Assembly (NCBI GenBank): GCA_024763275.1
Contig: JANTFT010000007.1
Coordinates: 1 to 59,818, forward strand
Reading direction: 5' to 3'
Length of the DNA: 59,818 bases
From: Anaerolineales bacterium
Lineage (GTDB): Bacteria > Chloroflexota > Anaerolineae > Anaerolineales > UBA11858
In this document: piece after piece, positions 14,186 to 28,397 of the stretch
Position numbering within the stretch: the stretch's first letter is position 1
Layout: every line of letters begins with the position of its first letter
The notes under the pieces: generated by a model
Database searches by the model: none
What the model saw: only the letters and a program-made list of their open reading frames with translations
What the model was told of the DNA's origin: nothing
Made by a program: the position numbers and the translations under genes

Positions 14186-15166
14186 CTAGCGCATGGTCAG
14201 CGCCATGACTGCTTTCTGGGCGTGCAAGCGGTTCTCAGCCTGGTCAAAGACCACTGACTGGGGACCATCCATCACTTCACTGGTCACCTCAACATCCCGG
14301 TCTGCGGGAAGCGGGTGCATGTAAATGGCATCCTTGTCTGCCAGGGCCATTTTCCTGGCGTCGGTGATCCAATCAGAATACTTGTCCTGGATCTTCTTGC
14401 CCTCTTCCGGATCCTGAGTGGTCAGTAGCGGCCCCCAGGACTTGGCATAGACGATATCAGCGTCCTTGAAGCCCTCTTCCATGTCGTGGACAACCTCGAA
14501 TTTGCCACCGTAGATCCTGGCCTGCTCTTTAGCCTGCTCCATGATCTCTGGCATCAGTTTGAATTCCGGCGGATGGGCCAGGGTAACATCCAGACCAAAG
14601 CGGGGCATCTGGAGGATCAAGGACTGGGGAACAGAGATCGGTTTCAGATAAGAGGACGCGTAAGCCCAGGAAACCACGATCTTCTTGCCGCGCAGGTCAC
14701 GACCTTTCTTCTCCATAATGGTCATGAGATCGGCCAGGCACTGATGCGGGTGATAGATCTCACACTGCATGTTCAAGACCGGAACCCGGGATGAGGAAGC
14801 AATATTGTTTATGTACCTGTTGCCAACACCCCAATCCACATGGCGGACGGCGATGCCGTCAAAATACCGGCCCAGGATCTCTCCCAATTCCACTTCTGTA
14901 TCGCCGTGAGAAACCTGGGTGGTGCGGCTTTCCATAAATGCCGCGTGGCCGCCCAGCTGTGCCATACCGGATTCAAAAGATGCCCGGGTCCTGGTGCTGG
15001 AAAAGAAGAACAGCATGGCCAGGGTCTTGTCCTCCAGCAGGTTGTGCCTTTCACCCAGAGCGCGTTTCTTCTTCAGATCCCAGGCCACCTCGAGAACAGT
15101 TTCAACTTCCTCTTTCGTGAAATCCAGGTCGCCAATTAAATCTCGGCCTCGTAAATCAGTTATCAT
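14186..15166 (-). CDS. ygeW: YgeW-like knotted carbamoyltransferase
   Basis: The 326-residue protein has the carbamoyl-phosphate motif SSTRTR (56-61), the QCEIYHPHQ block near 134 and a proline-containing knot segment KPISVPQ near 175. From memory its central region closely follows E. coli YgeW, whose purine cluster degrades 2,3-diureidopropionate, and it also resembles N-acetylornithine carbamoyltransferases. The C-terminal motif is HPLPADR. The start is the ATG at 15166 behind AAAGGAG; the reading frame stays open further upstream but that part runs into the neighbouring gene. In this context the enzyme probably works in the phosphorolytic direction, giving carbamoyl phosphate for the adjacent carbamate kinase. 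Substrate is inferred. Confidence 0.82.
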   Translation of the reverse strand: MITDLRGRDLIGDLDFTKEEVETVLEVAWDLKKKRALGERHNLLEDKTLAMLFFFSSTRTRASFESGMAQLGGHAAFMESRTTQVSHGDTEVELGEILGRYFDGIAVRHVDWGVGNRYINNIASSSRVPVLNMQCEIYHPHQCLADLMTIMEKKGRDLRGKKIVVSWAYASSYLKPISVPQSLILQMPRFGLDVTLAHPPEFKLMPEIMEQAKEQARIYGGKFEVVHDMEEGFKDADIVYAKSWGPLLTTQDPEEGKKIQDKYSDWITDARKMALADKDAIYMHPLPADRDVEVTSEVMDGPQSVVFDQAENRLHAQKAVMALTMR

Positions 15167-15197
15167 CGTTTGCTCCTTTAAATAACAAATAATCTGA

Positions 15198-15231
15198 GCT
15201 GGCAGGCTTACCTCCCGGTCTGCCTGCCAGC
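15198..15231 (-). terminator. Stem-loop between the two carbamoyltransferase genes
   Basis: GCTGGCAGGC and GCCTGCCAGC form a perfect 10-bp stem with a 14-base loop in the 82-base gap. On the transcribed strand it is followed by a T-rich stretch up to the ribosome site of the next gene. It may be an attenuator, a processing site or a message stabiliser. It lacks a clean run of T, so full termination is unlikely. Confidence 0.45.
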
Positions 15232-15248
15232 GTCGTTCCATCTCAGGA

Positions 15249-16202
15249 TTACTCTTTAGCTCCCAGCACCAGGGCCAGCAAGGCCATGCGCATGACCACG
15301 CCGTTGAAGCCCTCCTGCCAGTAGCGAGCCCAGCGGGTCTGGTCGACCTCAGGAGGAATCTCGTCCATGCGGGGCAGGGAATGCAGCAGAACCGCGTCGG
15401 ATTTGGCTTTGGTTTCCAGCAGTTCCTTGGTGATCTTGAACTCCGGAGGTGTCTGGCCGACATCCCCATCCCGTTCGTCACGCGATTTGGTGTAGTCAGG
15501 CTGCACCACAGGCTCAACCAGGATGACATCTGCATCAGCGATCACCTCGCGAACGTCTCCACCCTCTTTGAAATTCAGGCTGTTGCGCTTGAAATCCTCA
15601 CGGTATTCATCAGGCAGGGACATGTCCTTGGGAGAGATAAAGGTTATCGGGCAGTCAAACTGGGTCAGGGCATGACCGAGGGAGTGCATGGTGCGCATGC
15701 GCATATCCCCGACAGCGACCCATTTCAGACCATCGATGTGTCCTTTTTCACGCTTGATGGTGTAGAGATCGGTCAGGATCTGAGTGGGGTGTTCGCCCCA
15801 GCCGTCACCACCGTTGATGATGGGAACGCTGACCCATTTGGCGGCTTCATAGGGTGCGCCTTTCAAGAAATGGCGCATAACGATCACGTCCCCATAATTT
15901 TCGAGCATCTTGAAGGTATCCTTGATGGATTCCATGTAAAAGTCGCCGGCCCGGGTCATCTTAGCGTCAGAAAAGCCGGTCACCTTGCCGCCCAGTCGGA
16001 GCATAGCCGCTTCATGAGCCAGGCGGGTCCGGGTGGAAGGCTGGTAAAAAGCTGTCACCATGGTCTTTTCTTTCAGCAGGTTAACGTTCTTGCGGTTGTG
16101 CGCGATCGGGGCCAGTTCTTCTGCAACTTCGAAAACTCGCTCAAACTCGTGGCGTTCAAAATCGCGCAGGGAAATAATGTCACGTCCTACAAAGCTTCTC
16201 AT
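15249..16202 (-). CDS. Aspartate carbamoyltransferase-like enzyme
   Basis: The 317-residue protein has the PyrB-like motifs PSTRTRLAHE (55-64), GDGWGEHPTQ (132-141) and LLHSLPRMDE near 272. The loop that in PyrB carries Ser80 and Lys84 reads SDAKMTRAGDFYMES here and lacks the usual KGES, so the second substrate may not be aspartate. No other pyrimidine-synthesis gene is nearby. It stands between the GntR regulator and a second carbamoyltransferase, which suggests a catabolic job such as releasing carbamoyl phosphate from a ureido acid. The ATG follows AAAAAAGGAG. A true PyrB that merely sits here remains possible. Confidence 0.75.
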   Translation of the reverse strand: MRSFVGRDIISLRDFERHEFERVFEVAEELAPIAHNRKNVNLLKEKTMVTAFYQPSTRTRLAHEAAMLRLGGKVTGFSDAKMTRAGDFYMESIKDTFKMLENYGDVIVMRHFLKGAPYEAAKWVSVPIINGGDGWGEHPTQILTDLYTIKREKGHIDGLKWVAVGDMRMRTMHSLGHALTQFDCPITFISPKDMSLPDEYREDFKRNSLNFKEGGDVREVIADADVILVEPVVQPDYTKSRDERDGDVGQTPPEFKITKELLETKAKSDAVLLHSLPRMDEIPPEVDQTRWARYWQEGFNGVVMRMALLALVLGAKE

Positions 16203-16230
16203 CGTAAATCTCCTTTTTTATACGAACAAT

Positions 16231-16258
16231 TTAATACTATCTTTGGATTTGAATTCAA
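16231..16258 (-). promoter_or_regulatory. Possible internal promoter before the carbamoyl genes
   Basis: In the 76-base gap after the regulator gene the minus strand reads TTGAAT (16258-16253), a 16-base spacer and TATTAA (16236-16231). The -35 box is part of the palindrome TTGAATTCAA. An ATTGTTCG motif occurs twice in the gap region. The match is weak, but the A/T-rich gap with a strong ribosome site fits an internal start of transcription. Confidence 0.3.
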
Positions 16259-16278
16259 TCTGTATTGTTTATCTCTAT

Positions 16279-17007
16279 TTAGATTTGACCTCCAACTCTG
16301 CGAACAATATGAAAATGGAAATACCCGGGCAAAAAATAACTGAAGGACGAATCGATAATCCTTCCCCGGGTAGAAAACAACAAGGATGAAAAGACCAGCA
16401 AAGGATCATGACGCTGGATGTCCAGCGCGCTGGCTATCTCTGGTGTCGCGCCAATAGCGCTGATCTGGCATTTTGAACTGGCCAGTGGGATGTCATCCCT
16501 GCGAATCAGCATATCCAGCACAGATCCAGTGAAATTGGTGCGGACCTCACTCTCATTGATAACATCGACAGGTAGATTGTCTTCCAGGAATGCAACTGGA
16601 CGGTCATGGGAAAGGATCACCCTTGAAACAGTCAGGATATCCTGCCCTTCCGGCAGCTCCAGGGTTTCAGCCAGGTCCCGGTCCACAACCTGCCGGCAGA
16701 TCTCCATGTCCCCCAGGGATACCTCTAATCCCAGCTGTTCAGCGATGGTTTCCAGACTGCTGAGGGTTTCCAGGCCGGTCTCGAATACGTTGGAGGGATG
16801 GATCACGAAAGTTCCTACCCCTTGCTTCCGCTGCAGCAGACCCCGGGTCTCGAAAGTGCGCATGGCTTCCCGGAGTGAAGCCCGGGAGACACCTAGCACC
16901 GCCGCCAATTTTGGCTCCGAAGGCAGGCGCTGGCCTGACTCGGTATTGGCGATCATCAGGCTGAGCTGTTCATGCAGGTTCCTGGAAACATCATTTTCTC
17001 TGATCAA
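16279..17007 (-). CDS. GntR-family regulator with UTRA domain
   Basis: The 242-residue protein has an N-terminal winged helix (about 5-72; LPSEPKLAAVLGVSRASLRE is the helix-turn-helix) and a C-terminal UTRA ligand domain (about 85-240) ending in FHFHIVRR. UTRA domains bind small metabolites such as sugars, histidine derivatives or nucleobase-like compounds. The DNA-reading helix SRASLREAMR looks more like FadR-type than HutC-type members. It starts with TTG at 17007, overlapping the adenine deaminase stop (TTGA), which suggests low, coupled expression. The best candidate target is the pair of TTGTCAGACAA operators around the island promoter at 20262-20290. A purine intermediate as ligand is inference. 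Confidence 0.87.
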   Translation of the reverse strand: MIRENDVSRNLHEQLSLMIANTESGQRLPSEPKLAAVLGVSRASLREAMRTFETRGLLQRKQGVGTFVIHPSNVFETGLETLSSLETIAEQLGLEVSLGDMEICRQVVDRDLAETLELPEGQDILTVSRVILSHDRPVAFLEDNLPVDVINESEVRTNFTGSVLDMLIRRDDIPLASSKCQISAIGATPEIASALDIQRHDPLLVFSSLLFSTRGRIIDSSFSYFLPGYFHFHIVRRVGGQI

Positions 17008-18812
17008 GATTCTTCCCCTTCCAGAACAGGGATAAACTCAAATTTAGTAACATCGACCAGACCCAGATCAGAGATGCGCAGTTCCGGGATGACTACCAGA
17101 GCCAGCAAGCTCAGCTGCATATTGGGATTGAGGATGCTGCAGCCGCAAGCTTTAAATCCGGCCAGTACGCTGCCGGCTTCCTCGGCAACGACATCAGCCC
17201 GCTTGGTGGACATCAGACCCGCGATGGGCAGGCCAACCGAGCCGATCACCCGGCCGTCTTTGACCACCACCTGGCCACCTCTCATCTCAGCCAGGGTATT
17301 GGCAGCTATTGCCATCTGCTCTTCATCTGTTCCCACCACGATCATCTGGTGTGAATCATGAGCAACCGTGGAGCCCAGGGCGCATTTACCCTGCAGACCA
17401 AATCCGGTCACTAACCCCACTACCACTCCCCCGGTAGCCTTGTGCCTTTCCACCAGGGCAATCTTCAGCAAGTCTCCTTCCAGATCGATCTTGACTTCCC
17501 CGTCCACCGCTTTGACAGGTACCTTCAGGTGCCTGGTCGGTGCCTGACCTTCCACGATGCCGATAACATTAGCGGTAAGGGGGCTGTCCTCCAGAGCAGG
17601 ATCGACTTTCAGAGCAAAGTCCTCCGCGGTTAAGGGGCGTTTCAGATGAACGGATTCTGACGCCCAGGTGGGGTATGTGCTTGCCGGAAGCTCAAACTGC
17701 CAGGTACCTTCTTCAGCCAGCAGTTTTCCTTTGGCATATACCTGATAGGGTCGAAAATCCTCCAGATCCTTGACCAGCAGGATATCAGCATATCTGCCGG
17801 GTGCGATCTGTCCCATATCCCTGGCCAGCCCGAAATGTTCTGCAGTGTTGATGGTGGCCATCTGCAAAGCGATCAGCGGATCGATCCCCTGGCTGATGGT
17901 ATGGCGGAGCACCCGGTCCATATGGCCTTCATTGACCAGAGTCTCGGAATGTGAATCGTCCGTGCAAAGAATGAAATGCCGGGGGTCAAGCCCGTCTTCG
18001 GTGACGGCTTTGATCTGGGCTTTCACATCCAGCCACCCGGAACCGTAGCGGAGCATAGCTTTCATGCCCTGCCGAACCCGGGCAATGGCATCCTCCTTGC
18101 GGGTGCCTTCATGATCATCCTCAGGACCTCCAGCAGCGTAGCCATGAAACGGAAGGCCCAGATCCGGAGCGGCGTAGTGGCCGCCTATTACTTTCCCGGC
18201 CGCCCGGGTCGCTGCCATTTCATCATGCATTTTCTGATCGCTGGAAAACACGCCGGGGAAATTCATCATCTCTCCCAGGCCAATGATCTGCTCCCAGGTC
18301 ATAGCCTCCGCGACATCTTCCGGACTGATGGAGGAGCCCGGCGTTTCCAGGCCGGGGGCGGAAGGCACACAGGAAGGGACCTGAACCCAGACATGAATGG
18401 GCTGGTTCTGGGCTTCATCTGCCATCAGCCGGACGCCTTTCAGACCAAAGACATTGGCAATCTCATGGGGATCGATGAACATGCCGGTCGTACCCCGGGG
18501 GGCAACTGCCCGCACGAATTCAGTGATGGTCACCATACCGGATTCCACATGCATATGGGCATCCAGCAGCCCAGGTACCAGGTACATACCAGCTGCATCC
18601 ACAACCTTGGTCTGTTCTCCGATCGTGTGCGATGCATCTTCACCTACATAAGCAATTCTCTCACCCAGTATCGCAATGTCGGTGTCAGGTATGATCTCAC
18701 CGGACTGCACACATACCCAGCGGCCGTTGCGGATCACCAGGTCGGCCTTCTGGCGTCCCATAGCTACATCAACTAAAGCTCTGGTCCTGGCACTGATCTT
18801 TTCTTTACTCAT
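17004..18812 (-). CDS. ade: Adenine deaminase
   Basis: The 602-residue protein carries the standard adenine deaminase motifs: H86-M-H88-V-E90-S, DPHEIANV (114-121), a GH-containing metal segment near 195, CTDDSHSE near 275 and the C-terminal HDSHQM segment. It deaminates adenine to hypoxanthine in the cytoplasm. The start at 18812 is preceded by TAGGGAGAG; an upstream in-frame ATG would place that ribosome site inside the gene. It follows the 8-oxoguanine-deaminase-like gene by 28 bases and overlaps the regulator gene. A second, divergent family member sits about 9 kb downstream, so this copy is the likelier true Ade. Confidence 0.9.
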   Translation of the reverse strand: MSKEKISARTRALVDVAMGRQKADLVIRNGRWVCVQSGEIIPDTDIAILGERIAYVGEDASHTIGEQTKVVDAAGMYLVPGLLDAHMHVESGMVTITEFVRAVAPRGTTGMFIDPHEIANVFGLKGVRLMADEAQNQPIHVWVQVPSCVPSAPGLETPGSSISPEDVAEAMTWEQIIGLGEMMNFPGVFSSDQKMHDEMAATRAAGKVIGGHYAAPDLGLPFHGYAAGGPEDDHEGTRKEDAIARVRQGMKAMLRYGSGWLDVKAQIKAVTEDGLDPRHFILCTDDSHSETLVNEGHMDRVLRHTISQGIDPLIALQMATINTAEHFGLARDMGQIAPGRYADILLVKDLEDFRPYQVYAKGKLLAEEGTWQFELPASTYPTWASESVHLKRPLTAEDFALKVDPALEDSPLTANVIGIVEGQAPTRHLKVPVKAVDGEVKIDLEGDLLKIALVERHKATGGVVVGLVTGFGLQGKCALGSTVAHDSHQMIVVGTDEEQMAIAANTLAEMRGGQVVVKDGRVIGSVGLPIAGLMSTKRADVVAEEAGSVLAGFKACGCSILNPNMQLSLLALVVIPELRISDLGLVDVTKFEFIPVLEGEES

Positions 18813-18840
18813 ATTTCTCTCCCTAGGCAAAACCAAGAAG

Positions 18841-20226
18841 TTAGCTGTTCAGCAAACGTTTGGCTGCCAGGTTGTGCTTTTCGATCAAGACCGGCAGGTC
18901 TGCGGTGGTAAGCTGGCCTTCTTTGACGATAAATTTGCCGCCGACAACGTTGTAATCCACCTTGACGGGAGCACAGAACACCAGGGCAGCTACGGGATCG
19001 TGTAAAGCGCCGGCGTAATCGATTCTCTCCAGATTAATGGCGATAAAATCAGCGGCCTTTCCCGGCTCCAGGGAGCCGATATCTTTCCGCCCTAAAACTG
19101 CCGCTCCACCGCGGGTGGCCAATTCCAGTGTCTGGCGGGCTGACATGATCGCCTGGCTGGTTTTCCCGGACCGGGAGGCTCCCTGAATGCCTGCTCGCAG
19201 CCGGGCCAGCAGCAGGGCCTGGCGGGCTTCTTCCAGCAGGTGGGATCCATCATTGCTAGCAGAACCGTCCACTCCGATGCCAACATCCACTCCAGCGGCT
19301 ACCAGATCGAGAACGGGAGCTGCACCGGATGCCAGGCGCATATTTGAACTGGGACAGTGGGCCACACCGCAGCTGTGTTCTGCATAAGTGGCAATCTCAT
19401 CCTCATTCAGGTAAACGGAATGGGCAAACCAGACATCAGGTCCGATCCAGTCCACCTCCTCCATGTAGGCAACCGGCCTTTTGCCAAACCTGGCAATCGT
19501 GAAATCGACCTCGTCCTCGGTTTCTGCCAGGTGGGTGTGCAGCTGCACACCGTAATCCCTCGCCAGTCGAGCGCTTTCCCGCATCAGGTCCCCGGTGACA
19601 CTGAAAGGGGAGCAGGGAGCCAGTACGATCTGTGTGTAGGATCCCGGTTCGGGGTCATGATAGGTTTCAATCACCCGCTGAGAGTCTTTCAAGATCTGAT
19701 CCTCATCCTCCACAACGCTGTCTGGCGGTAAACCTCCCTTGCTCTCCCCCAGACTCATCGACCCCCGGGAGGCATGCAATCGCAAGCCTATCTCCAGCGC
19801 TGCTTCAATCTCATCATCCAGCCGGGATCCGTTGGGAAAAAGATAGAGATGATCAGAGGCGGTGGTGCAGCCGGATAATGCCAGCTCAGCAAGGGCCGTC
19901 CGGGTGGAGATCTGGATATCTTCCGGTCTCAGGCGAGCCCAGATCGGATAGAGGGTTTTCAACCAATGGAATAAGTTGGCATCCTGAGCAGCCGGGATAA
20001 CCCTGGTGAGCGTCTGATAGAAATGGTGGTGGGTGTTTACCAGTCCTGGCAGCAGGATATGCCCCTTTAAATCAAGAATCTGATCAGCTTGTGAGGGTAG
20101 TTGATCAGATTTTCCCACCTGTTCTATAAAGCCATCCTGGATAAAAAGGCCGCCATCAGGGATTTCCTGGCGCTGGTCATCCATGGTCACCAATACTTGG
20201 GCGTTCTTTACCAGAAGAGTAGACAT
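18841..20226 (-). CDS. 8-oxoguanine deaminase-type amidohydrolase
   Basis: The 461-residue protein is a mononuclear metal amidohydrolase of the cytosine/guanine deaminase group. It has the N-terminal metal motif NTHHHF (H66, H68), HTHLAETEDE near 236, a His in the FAHSVYLNEDE segment and GVDGSASND near 322. The stretch RGSMSLGESKGGLPPDSVV is characteristic, from memory, of proteins annotated as 8-oxoguanine deaminase, which turn 8-oxoguanine into urate. In E. coli the comparable slot of the purine cluster is ssnA. It is the first gene of the island: the ATG at 20226 follows AAAGGATAAT, and its promoter lies between two operators. Guanine deaminase is an alternative. Confidence 0.82.
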   Translation of the reverse strand: MSTLLVKNAQVLVTMDDQRQEIPDGGLFIQDGFIEQVGKSDQLPSQADQILDLKGHILLPGLVNTHHHFYQTLTRVIPAAQDANLFHWLKTLYPIWARLRPEDIQISTRTALAELALSGCTTASDHLYLFPNGSRLDDEIEAALEIGLRLHASRGSMSLGESKGGLPPDSVVEDEDQILKDSQRVIETYHDPEPGSYTQIVLAPCSPFSVTGDLMRESARLARDYGVQLHTHLAETEDEVDFTIARFGKRPVAYMEEVDWIGPDVWFAHSVYLNEDEIATYAEHSCGVAHCPSSNMRLASGAAPVLDLVAAGVDVGIGVDGSASNDGSHLLEEARQALLLARLRAGIQGASRSGKTSQAIMSARQTLELATRGGAAVLGRKDIGSLEPGKAADFIAINLERIDYAGALHDPVAALVFCAPVKVDYNVVGGKFIVKEGQLTTADLPVLIEKHNLAAKRLLNS

Positions 20227-24736: not shown

Positions 24737-26719
24737 ATGACTCAGAAAGCTGACTTATTATTCATCAACGCTTATGTGCTGTGCATGGATGATGATTTTA
24801 CCCAGTACGAAAAGGGGTTTGTGGCTGTGACGGGGGACCAGATCACGGAGGTGGGACCGGCTGACCAGCTTCAGGGTGAATATTCTGCTGGTGAAGTGAT
24901 CGATTGTGAGGGAAAAGTTTTAATGCCCGGGCTGGTCAACGCCCACACCCACGTGCCTATGAACCTGCTCCGTGGATTAGGGGATGACTTGCGCCTGGAT
25001 GTCTGGCTGCTGGGTTACATCATGCCCGTTGAAAGGGAATATGTCAATCCAGATTTTGTGCGTCTGGGTACCTCCCTGGCCTGCGCTGAATTGATCCTCT
25101 CCGGGGTAACTTCCTTTGCTGATATGTATTATTTCGAAGACCAGGTTGCTGAGGTAGCCGCCGAAGCTGGGATGAGAGCGATTTGCGGCCAGACCATCCT
25201 GAAATTCCCCGCACCCGACGCAGACTCCTATGAGGATTCCCTGGCAGCTTCAGAAGAGATGATCCTGAAATGGAAAGATCACCCCTTGATCACACCGGCA
25301 TTAGCCCCCCATGCAGCCTACACTTCCACGGTAGATATCCTGGAATCCGCCACTAAACTGGCCTTGAAATACGATGTACCCCTGCACATTCACATCGCAG
25401 AGACTTCCCAGGAAGTGGAAGACAGCCTGGAACTCTATGATATGCCGGTGGTGCCCTACCTGGAGCAGTTCGGTGTGTTTGAATCCAAGGTAATTGCCGC
25501 TCATTGTGTGCACATAGACGAGCGGGAAATGCACACCCTGGCCAGACATGGCGTAGGCGTAGCCCACAACCCAACTTCAAATTTAAAGCTTTCTTCTGGC
25601 ATTGCTCCTGTCAGCAGCATGCTTGATCACGGCATCAATGTCGGCATTGGGACAGATGGTGTATCCTCGAACAACGATCTGGATATGTTTGAGGAGCTCC
25701 GCCTGGCCGCCCTGCTCGCCAAAGGTAGCAGCGGGGATCCTACGGTGGTCCCGGCCCGGTCAGCAATCGCCATGGCGACCAGTATGGGCGCGAGAGCCAT
25801 TCATCTGGGCGACCAGACCGGCTCAATAGAAATCGGGAAAAAAGCAGACCTGATCCTGGTGGACATCAACACTCTCCACAATTCCCCCCATTTCCGGAAC
25901 GACCCCAACAGCGTCTACGCCCAGCTGGTGTACGCAGCTAAATCCACCGATGTCACCGATGTGATGGTCAATGGAAAATGGCTGATGCGCTCGCGGGAAT
26001 TATTAACCATCGCCCTCGAGGAACTGCTGCCCAGAGCTCAATCCCTGGCGGAGGAGATCGATCGTTTCCTGATCGAACGCTTCCAGTCAGTCTACTCTAA
26101 ACTGATCGCCATCGGCGGAGCGGAGGAGCAGGAAAGTTACGAGGTCCAGGTCAAAGCCAAATTGGAAGATCCCCAGAGCGTGATCTCCAAGATCGAGGAT
26201 TGTGAATTAGAGATCCTCTACTACCGCCACTACCATGAATTTGACACCTACTTCAAGTTCGAGAGACCTGAGGAAGGCTGGCTGCGCTACCGCGAGGATG
26301 AGTTCATCGATCGGCAGGGCAAGGTGGAAAACATCCGCTATCGCCTGACCTTGATCGGACCCCAGCGGGAAAGGCATTTTCCACAGGACGTGCTGCTCTC
26401 CCGCAGCCGGTTCATAGCCCCGGCTCCCCACAGCCTGCGGTTTTATCGGGAATATTTCAAGCCTGTCGCAGAAACATTCATTGAGAAAGACCGCAGGCGC
26501 TGGAAGGTCAATTTCCACGGAATCGAGTTCTTCATCAATGTGGACCGATTGGACGAACCCGAGCTGGGGACCTTCCTTGAAGTCAAGAGCCGCACCTGGT
26601 CTCTGGAGGATGCTGAGAAAAAAGCCCGGGTGGCCAAAGAATTGCTGCAGCTTTTGGGCAGCCTGCCTGAGGAAACGGAAACTCTGGATTACGTGCAGAT
26701 CGTTGAATCCCAATCCTGA
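24737..26719 (+). CDS. Amidohydrolase (MTA/SAH deaminase-like) fused to CYTH domain
   Basis: The 660-residue protein has two parts. Residues 1 to about 445 form an MtaD-like amidohydrolase with NAHTHVPMNLLRG, HIHIAETSQE, AAHCVHIDE and GTDGVSSNNDLD, the metal and catalytic set used to deaminate methylthioadenosine, S-adenosylhomocysteine or adenosine. Residues about 465-650 look like a CYTH domain: E469-V-Q-V-K473 where the family usually has E-x-E-x-K, then DTYFKF, WLRYRED, YRLTLIGP and a final FLEVK with Glu615. CYTH proteins bind triphosphates in a tunnel (thiamine triphosphatase, tripolyphosphatase, class IV adenylyl cyclase). The ATG follows GCGGAGGACC. Fusion of a nucleoside deaminase to CYTH is unfamiliar to me, and the frame is continuous. 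Confidence 0.85.
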   Translation: MTQKADLLFINAYVLCMDDDFTQYEKGFVAVTGDQITEVGPADQLQGEYSAGEVIDCEGKVLMPGLVNAHTHVPMNLLRGLGDDLRLDVWLLGYIMPVEREYVNPDFVRLGTSLACAELILSGVTSFADMYYFEDQVAEVAAEAGMRAICGQTILKFPAPDADSYEDSLAASEEMILKWKDHPLITPALAPHAAYTSTVDILESATKLALKYDVPLHIHIAETSQEVEDSLELYDMPVVPYLEQFGVFESKVIAAHCVHIDEREMHTLARHGVGVAHNPTSNLKLSSGIAPVSSMLDHGINVGIGTDGVSSNNDLDMFEELRLAALLAKGSSGDPTVVPARSAIAMATSMGARAIHLGDQTGSIEIGKKADLILVDINTLHNSPHFRNDPNSVYAQLVYAAKSTDVTDVMVNGKWLMRSRELLTIALEELLPRAQSLAEEIDRFLIERFQSVYSKLIAIGGAEEQESYEVQVKAKLEDPQSVISKIEDCELEILYYRHYHEFDTYFKFERPEEGWLRYREDEFIDRQGKVENIRYRLTLIGPQRERHFPQDVLLSRSRFIAPAPHSLRFYREYFKPVAETFIEKDRRRWKVNFHGIEFFINVDRLDEPELGTFLEVKSRTWSLEDAEKKARVAKELLQLLGSLPEETETLDYVQIVESQS

Positions 26720-26722
26720 GCA

Positions 26723-27592
26723 ATGAAAATAGCCGCCCTCGCCGATATTCACGGTAACTACCAGGCCCTGATTACCGTTCTGGAACATGTGGAAGCCTGG
26801 AAGCCTGATCTGGTCCTGGTTCTAGGTGACATCATCAACCGCGGTCCCCGCTCCAAAGAATGCCTTGACCTGATCAGGGTTAAAGCACTCAGCCCCAATT
26901 GGCATGTGATTAAAGGCAATCATGAGGGCTACGTGCTGATGTTTGAAGATCCAGATTTTTCACGGAAAGGTCATGATTTCGATCTCCGGAAAATCATATT
27001 TTGGACCTATCAGTCCCTCAGCAAGAGCGACATTCAGGACATAGCCCAGCTCCCGGAAGAGATCCAGCTCACACTGCCCGATCAACAGCTTATCAAAGCC
27101 GCTCACGCATCAATCGCTGGGGATCGCGTTGGGATCTATCCCGATACTCCTCCCTCTGCCCTGGCGGGGTTGATCCCGGCAGAAGCTCAGCTCTTCCTGG
27201 TAGGGCACACTCACCAACCGTTAGTGAGAACTTACCAGGGCACTACCATCGTCAATGTCGGGTCTGTAGGTTTGCCCTTCGATGGGGATACCCGGGCAGC
27301 TTATGCCCGGCTTACCTACCACAAAGGAACATGGCACGGTGAGATCACCAGGGTGGAATACGATTTACAGGCAGCTGAGGATGATTATTACAAAACAGGT
27401 TTCATTCCCGACGGCGGACCACTTGCGGACCTGGTCCTGGCAGAGCTGCGCCTGGGCTGGCCCCAGCTGGGCAGATGGTTCAAACGTTTTGAGATGCCCA
27501 TCCGCGGGGAGGAAATCAGCCTGCAGGATGCTGTATATGAATTTCTTAAGAATCCCAATATCGAGTCCCGCCGCCCGGGGTATCCGCGGTAA
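26723..27592 (+). CDS. Metallophosphoesterase, calcineurin-like
   Basis: The 289-residue protein carries the two-metal phosphoesterase signature: ADIHGN (7-12), GDIINRG near 36, GNHE near 64 and GHTHQP near 165. The overall size and the NVGSVG segment resemble the YfcE/PrpE/diadenosine-tetraphosphatase-like group. Substrates in this group range from cyclic nucleotides and dinucleoside polyphosphates to phosphoproteins. It begins three bases after the stop codon of the CYTH fusion gene and has no clear ribosome site of its own, so it is probably translated by coupling. That link hints that the two proteins act on related phosphorylated nucleotides. Confidence 0.88.
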   Translation: MKIAALADIHGNYQALITVLEHVEAWKPDLVLVLGDIINRGPRSKECLDLIRVKALSPNWHVIKGNHEGYVLMFEDPDFSRKGHDFDLRKIIFWTYQSLSKSDIQDIAQLPEEIQLTLPDQQLIKAAHASIAGDRVGIYPDTPPSALAGLIPAEAQLFLVGHTHQPLVRTYQGTTIVNVGSVGLPFDGDTRAAYARLTYHKGTWHGEITRVEYDLQAAEDDYYKTGFIPDGGPLADLVLAELRLGWPQLGRWFKRFEMPIRGEEISLQDAVYEFLKNPNIESRRPGYPR

Positions 27593-27614: not shown

Positions 27615-28397
27615 ATGTCAACAACCAGATTGGAAATTGCTAAAAAAGCAGGTCTGCAGGCCGGAAAAGAGCTTCTGGATTTGTTCAAAACCGGCCCGCA
27701 GGTGGGTGAGCTGAAAGCGGATCGCACGCTGGTCACAGAAGCTGACCGCAGGGCCGATCAGCTGATCCAATCCCTGATCAGTGAGGTTTATCCCCAGGAC
27801 GGCATCTTAAGTGAGGAGAATTCGACCGTTTTGCCCAGGACGGAACACACCTGGATCTTGGATCCACTGGACGGTACGGTCAATTTCAGCCACGGCCTGC
27901 TTTACTGGGGAGTCTCGATCGCCCACTTAAAGAACGGCTTTCCTGAGGACGGTGCAGTTTATTTCCCGGTGCCGGACGAGCTTTACACCGCTTCAGCGGG
28001 TCAGGGAGCGGCTTTGAACGGCACTCCTCTTTCCCTTTCCGGAAAAGACCCGGGGCTGTTCCCTATCTTCGCACATTGTTCCAGAATGCATCAGCGCTAT
28101 GAAATAAGAACTCCCTACAAGACTCGCAGCCTGGGAGCGGCCGCTTATCATTTATGCATGGTGGCCGGGGCTGGCGCCGTGCTGGCTCTGGAAAGCACAC
28201 CCAGAATATGGGATTTCGCCGCCAGCTGGCTGATTGTTCAGGAGGCAGGTGGGGCAATCCGGGCGCTGGGAGAGGAAGAACCTTTCCCTGTTCAGCCCGG
28301 ACTGGATTACGCCAAGAAACCCTTCCCGATCCTGGCAGCCAGTTCGCCCGAAATCCTGGCAGCAGCCGCTGAAGGGATTACACCAATAATAAGCTGA
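27615..28397 (+). CDS. Inositol-monophosphatase-like enzyme
   Basis: The 260-residue protein has the lithium-sensitive phosphatase fold. Visible motifs are [10 protein letters not shown] near 42, SEEN near 75 (metal ligands), [12 protein letters not shown] near 88 and [15 protein letters not shown] near 205. Family members hydrolyse inositol phosphates, 3'-phosphoadenosine 5'-phosphate or fructose bisphosphate. The start is the ATG at 27615 after AGGTAA, 22 bases behind the phosphoesterase gene. With an adenosine-type deaminase upstream, a nucleotide substrate such as pAp is worth considering, but that is inference. Confidence 0.88.

Follow-up and report, generated by a model that had tools for sequence, protein, structure and literature searches.

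A nucleoside deaminase fused to a CYTH-fold domain with altered tunnel residues in Chloroflexota

CYTH proteins stand at the junction of nucleotide and phosphate metabolism, and what they do in the cell is in many cases unclear. Nucleoside deaminases of the ATZ/TRZ type, for their part, convert the adenine of a nucleoside to hypoxanthine by deamination. According to PMC8233210, CYTH/TTM proteins hold their metals with the ExExK signature and a C-terminal ExE, the second Glu of which binds metal 2, while the DxY motif positions waters and RxR grips the phosphates. An HF preceding ExExK marks the cyclases, which carry Ala in place of the second Glu of ExE, and W/YxRxR marks the thiamine triphosphatases (ThTPases). 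In the same source, the known CYTH partners comprise HD, exopolyphosphatase, nucleotidyl kinase, CHAD and phosphoribulokinase-type domains, and plant TTM1/2-type proteins are described that lack both ExExK and ExE and yet act as pyrophosphatases in vitro. No mention of a CYTH domain combined with an amidohydrolase or nucleoside deaminase was found in those portions of the literature that were searched.

The window analysed here, i.e., the whole stretch of 59,818 nucleotides from an Anaerolineales bacterium (contig JANTFT010000007.1), contains such a combination. A single uninterrupted ORF of 660 codons runs on the plus strand from an ATG at 24737, immediately preceded by an AGGAGG-like site, to a TGA ending at 26719. 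An earlier note had read this gene as a nucleoside deaminase continuing unbroken into a CYTH domain, a description that stands: the first part is recognised by a strong Pfam match (PF01979, E 1.3e-76, residues 61-416), the second through its relatives and its predicted fold. The features discussed below are collected in the Table.

Table. Coordinates (window numbering) of the fusion gene, its domains and motifs, and the two genes that follow; n/35 refers to phylum-wide sequences
Feature	Positions	Strand	Basis or conservation
Whole fusion gene, amidohydrolase + CYTH-fold, 660 aa	24737..26719	+	same lone ORF in fetched relatives, unless cut by a contig end
Amidohydrolase (ATZ/TRZ, MTA/adenosine deaminase type), residues 1-445	24737..26071	+	PF01979; PDB 4f0r/4dzh/4gbd
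HxH zinc ligands H70, H72	24944..24952	+	invariant, 35 sequences
H219 + E222	25391..25402	+	invariant, 35 sequences
H256, active-site His	25502..25504	+	invariant, 35 sequences
D307, zinc ligand / general base	25655..25657	+	invariant, 35 sequences
Helical linker, residues 427-460	26015..26116	+	two helices in AlphaFold model, pLDDT about 60-86
CYTH/TTM-fold domain, residues 463-640, eight strands + closing helix	26123..26656	+	AlphaFold, Foldseek, profile matches of relatives
E-x-Q-x-K, 469-473 (EVQVK), in place of ExExK	26141..26155	+	E, Q, K each 35/35
DTYF, 503-506, DxY kept	26243..26254	+	D and Y 35/35
LRYRED, 516-521, RxR kept, then invariant E-D	26282..26299	+	R517, R519, E520, D521 35/35
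SRSR, 555-558, strand 5	26399..26410	+	R558 35/35, R556 34/35; aligned to canonical CYTH
EKDRRR, 583-588, basic KxR kept, extra R588	26483..26500	+	K584, R586, R588 35/35
NVD, 601-603	26537..26545	+	N601, D603 35/35
FLEVKSRTW, 613-621, E-x-K replaces ExE, then invariant RTW	26573..26599	+	E615, K617, R619, T620, W621 35/35
Calcineurin-type phosphoesterase, 3 bp after the fusion stop	26723..27592	+	PF12850 E 1.4e-20 (PF12850/PF00149)
Inositol-monophosphatase-family protein	27615..28397	+	PF00459 E 4e-46

A phylum-wide fusion and its deaminase half

A frameshift hiding two separate genes, which the note had named as refuting its reading, can be discarded, as can an assembly error: across the phylum the gene is one long ORF in every fetched relative not cut by a contig end. 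Of the 121 fetched copies, 116 read through as a single frame of 600 codons or more, and the remaining five run off contig ends. Neither the relatives nor the phylum sample contain split copies other than at contig ends, and no copies were found in plasmids and viral contigs. The CYTH part was matched in 185 of 201 order-level relatives (104 of 108 when good-quality genomes are considered) and a phylum-wide sample of 400 Chloroflexota genomes, other classes included, has the fusion in 89. In GTDB genomes there are at least 565 matches, and the best 80 all bear Chloroflexota names, Pelolinea submarina among them. Those genomes lacking the fusion that were examined encode only distant stand-alone amidohydrolases, with at most 38% identity over the domain. 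Since every fused deaminase domain falls on one side of a branch with an SH-aLRT of 99, and thus into a single clade, the data are consistent with a single ancient fusion. Both halves are under similar constraint, with 71 of 445 residues (16%) invariant in the deaminase half and 28 of 202 (14%) in the CYTH half of 35 sequences.

The metal site expected of ATZ/TRZ amidohydrolases, made up of HxH, two further His and an Asp together with a catalytic Glu, is present in full as H70, H72, H219, H256, D307 and E222. From what is known of amidohydrolases, we take H219 to be a zinc ligand and E222 to be the catalytic Glu. Because all six residues are invariant across the 35 sequences, the deaminase site looks functional. 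Among solved structures, this half comes closest to the adenosine/MTA deaminases 4f0r, 4dzh and 4gbd, at 37-41% identity and with a TM-score of 0.94-0.95 across the domain. E99, W90 and H192, which hold the free ribose in the MTA/adenosine deaminase family, are retained in the fusions. Residue 156, whose place in the strand would put it near the deaminase pocket, is Lys or Arg in 29 of the 35 fusions and Q or V in the other six; in the solved adenosine/MTA deaminases it is Asp or Glu.

The substrate is probably one of MTA, 5'-deoxyadenosine, adenosine and SAH, an assignment at the family level. The MTA/SAH-deaminase label of the earlier note is reasonable to that extent, but none of the NCBIfam equivalogs shown has its cut-off reached by the window protein. 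Among the best scores, that to the TRZ/ATZ hydrolase family is 466 bits against a cut-off of 540, and the matches to N-ethylammeline chlorohydrolase, 5'-deoxyadenosine deaminase and MTA/SAH deaminase are all below their equivalog cut-offs, the last of these (NF012037, MtaD) with 322.5 bits where 779 are needed.

A predicted CYTH fold with altered tunnel motifs

A Pfam scan of the window protein gives no CYTH match for its C-terminal part, and TIGR00318 (cyaB) matches it below threshold (E 0.0016). Taken literally for this one sequence, this is the outcome that the earlier note had named as fatal to a CYTH assignment, but it is overruled by the relatives and by the fold. When relatives are scanned singly, PF01928 is matched by 15 of 35 (best E 1.6e-8) and TIGR00318 by 28 of 35 (best E 4e-8). 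Fold comparison was needed because the CYTH part, used as a single sequence or as a profile, had no useful match among PDB sequences. The AlphaFold model of the domain, based on the 35-sequence alignment, has a pLDDT of 88.7 and forms an eight-stranded tunnel barrel with the CYTH order of elements. Against the PDB, Foldseek matches this model foremost to CYTH/TTM proteins (probability 1.00, best E 9.9e-9), including Y. pestis CyaB, Pyrococcus CYTH proteins, SaTTM, ThTPase and plant TTMs; Mediator subunits are also among the matches.

Relatives (e.g., L183-L202) often encode, as a separate protein, an ordinary CYTH in which ExExK and ExE are intact, and Pfam CYTH matches occur in 140 of 201 relatives' genomes; with Pfam CYTH none was detected in the own genome of the window. 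A canonical CYTH protein was considered as a stand-in and rejected. When the domain is compared by profile with the ordinary CYTH proteins found in its order, the probability is weak (22.6%) but E is 9e-4; the alignment pairs ExQxK with ExExK, ExK with ExE and D with D, and sets RxR and KxR against their counterparts.

The motifs that face the phosphates in CYTH enzymes, DxY and RxR, are found in all 35 sequences, and K473, D503, Y505, R517, R519, K584 and R586 are kept throughout, as are D603 and E615. On the metal side, the EVQVK and the late FLEVK to which the note had drawn attention are indeed found at 469-473 and 613-617. The ExExK signature of catalytic TTM, ThTPase and class IV cyclase proteins is absent, all 35 sequences having ExQxK, and the C-terminal two-metal ExE of catalytic TTM and ThTPase proteins is likewise replaced by ExK in 35 of 35. 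The invariant Glu of canonical strand 5 (RxEIE) corresponds to an Arg, R556 or R558 depending on where the gap is placed, and the canonical Lys of LTxK has given way to I, M, T, L or V. A new motif, RTWS..DA, is conserved after strand 8. Most of the invariant residues are charged, and within each strand they favour one face (18 of 21, p about 0.03 for random placement). Judged from the alignment, the metal side of the tunnel has thus largely given way to neutral or basic residues, which are fixed in their turn, while the phosphate side is preserved.

Two familiar CYTH activities were considered and rejected. A class IV adenylyl cyclase should have the HF motif, which is missing, and Ala for the second Glu of ExE, where the fusion has Lys. 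A thiamine triphosphatase should have W/YxRxR; here RxR is invariant, but the preceding aromatic position is not conserved and can be W, Y, Q, T, R, H, I and others. That the CYTH part would by default handle triphosphates or make cAMP, as the note had supposed, is not supported, given the missing HF and the Gln and Lys at metal positions in 35 of 35 sequences.

Genomic neighbourhood

The two following genes are phosphoesterases, as previously noted, one of them three bases away (Table); an aldo/keto reductase gene comes next. As a functional clue the pair was largely set aside, since the calcineurin-type gene adjoins the fusion in only 11 of 121 loci and the inositol-monophosphatase-family gene, first or second downstream in 33 of 121, is patchy. 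Their conservation is confined to parts of the order, which makes these neighbours weak evidence. Within the order, the fusion is most often accompanied by a CinA-type gene with MoCF_biosynth (PF00994) and CinA_KH domains, whose C-terminal part is not recognised as PncC (NMN deamidase). In 51 of 121 loci (e.g., L032, L108, L127 and L156) this gene immediately precedes the fusion and is tightly coupled to it, and in 12 it stands one gene further off; within the window it is not adjacent. The N-terminal family of CinA cleaves ADP-ribose (PMC3680494). By sequence inspection, some other lineages have dephospho-CoA-kinase-like and thymidine-phosphorylase-like neighbours, the former directly after the fusion in L093 and L096-L100, which belong to other Chloroflexota classes. 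The theme of the neighbourhood is nucleotide and phosphate housekeeping, with no universal partner.

The own genome of the window encodes AhcY, an inosine/guanosine phosphorylase and an MTA/MTI-type phosphorylase, so that products of the deaminase could be recycled. For the same reason, genome content does not single out one substrate, and the need for an SAH route was dropped as a substrate clue, AhcY being already there. One phosphorylase of this genome (L234:98-1168, minus strand) passes the cut-offs of both TIGR01694 (MTA phosphorylase) and NF006599 (methylthioinosine phosphorylase). Elsewhere in the window, the minus strand of 14186-20226 carries a cluster resembling purine or nucleobase catabolism. 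It includes two carbamoyltransferase-type genes (one, of the aspartate type, over cut-off), a GntR-like regulator read by eye and two genes that are both over cut-off, an adenine deaminase (TIGR01178) and an 8-oxoguanine-deaminase-type amidohydrolase (NF006055), the latter a paralogue of the fusion's deaminase half.

Proposed function and relation to known systems

We favour, with a probability of about one half, a protein in which a working zinc nucleoside deaminase is joined to a CYTH-derived tunnel that would bind a phosphorylated ligand in a regulatory or docking role rather than cleave or cyclise it. The N-terminal half would be a mononuclear-zinc deaminase of the MTA/5'-deoxyadenosine/adenosine/SAH group, releasing ammonia as adenine becomes hypoxanthine, and the C-terminal barrel would grip an anionic, phosphate-bearing ligand through its Lys/Arg side. 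With the acidic side for two catalytic metals gone, the barrel would most likely bind its ligand without cleaving or cyclising it. In that role it would serve as a sensor or docking module tying the rate of deamination to a phosphorylated metabolite, for which ATP, inorganic tri- or polyphosphate and a nucleotide alarmone are conjectural candidates. Binding is preferred over catalysis because the phosphate side is kept and the metal side replaced by fixed neutral or basic residues. Loss of two-metal catalysis is inferred from these replacements; ExQxK, the strand-5 Arg and ExK argue against a two-metal triphosphatase or cyclase. That such a charge-altered, metal-poor tunnel has become a dedicated phosphometabolite sensor or substrate dock within a nucleoside deaminase is a tentative idea, to which we give slightly less than even credence.

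Since E469, D603 and E615 remain, one metal could still bind, and one-metal or different chemistry is conceivable. The CYTH half may then be a further active site that uses metal in a different way, perhaps as a pyrophosphatase or as a phosphatase for a specific organic phosphate, making the enzyme bifunctional. The 28 mostly charged invariant residues of the domain and the conserved RTWS..DA motif would fit this, as would the in vitro activity of the plant TTM1/2 proteins. However, Gln and Lys occupy two metal-ligand positions without exception, the strand-5 Glu is an Arg and the LTxK Lys is not maintained, and we regard a second active site as unlikely. Alternatively, both halves might act on one phosphorylated adenosine derivative (ATP-like, adenosine thiamine triphosphate or a damaged nucleotide), with its phosphates in the CYTH tunnel while the amidohydrolase deaminates it. 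A fusion that is never separated, the basic residue 156 of most copies and the ADP-ribose-cleaving family of the frequent operon partner CinA point this way. On the other hand, E99, W90 and H192 would still hold a free ribose, residue 156 is uncharged in six of the 35 sequences, and the relative position of the two sites is uncertain in the model, as is the arrangement of the two domains, because the linker has a pLDDT of about 60; a shared substrate therefore seems quite improbable.

The CYTH-like part could also be purely structural, serving oligomerisation or stability. A non-catalytic fold of this kind has a precedent, because the Mediator subunits among the fold matches, Med18/Med20, use it structurally. 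But the invariant residues are polar, tend towards one strand face and match known ligand-binding positions of CYTH proteins, which is not expected of a scaffold and makes a structural role highly improbable. If the more tentative idea of a dedicated phosphometabolite sensor or substrate dock is correct, the fusion would represent a new, phylum-typical coupling of nucleoside (SAM by-product) recycling to the phosphate or energy status of the cell, and its C-terminal half a new subfamily of CYTH domains. As a phylum-wide, never-split fusion to a deaminase it offers a direct clue to a CYTH role, as well as a natural test of what becomes of the tunnel once metal ligands are replaced. It also cautions against labelling such proteins plain chlorohydrolases, MTA deaminases or adenylate cyclases.

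Compared with known systems, the architecture is judged to be new, with a new CYTH subtype, both parts coming from known superfamilies. The deaminases 4gbd (P. aeruginosa), 4f0r (C. violaceum) and 4dzh (X. campestris) have the same metal ligands and resemble the fusion over the whole deaminase domain, but their chains lack a C-terminal CYTH domain and residue 156 is acidic. The SAH/MTA deaminase TM0936 of T. maritima (1p1m/2plm) has the superfamily and active-site chemistry in common; it is more distant (TM-score 0.90, 34% identity) and unfused. On the CYTH side, the class IV adenylyl cyclase YpCyaB (3n0z/2fjt) and the archaeal SaTTM (7ns9) share the fold (Foldseek E 1e-8 to 1e-7), DxY, RxR, the tunnel Lys and the first Glu of both ExExK and ExE, whereas the fusion differs in its ExQxK, ExK and strand-5 Arg, in having no HF motif and in the attached deaminase. 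YgiF (CYTH-CHAD), plant TTM1/2 (kinase-CYTH) and the HD, exopolyphosphatase and nucleotidyl-kinase fusions of PMC8233210 likewise join a CYTH module to an enzyme, but with another partner, in another domain order and in other phyla.
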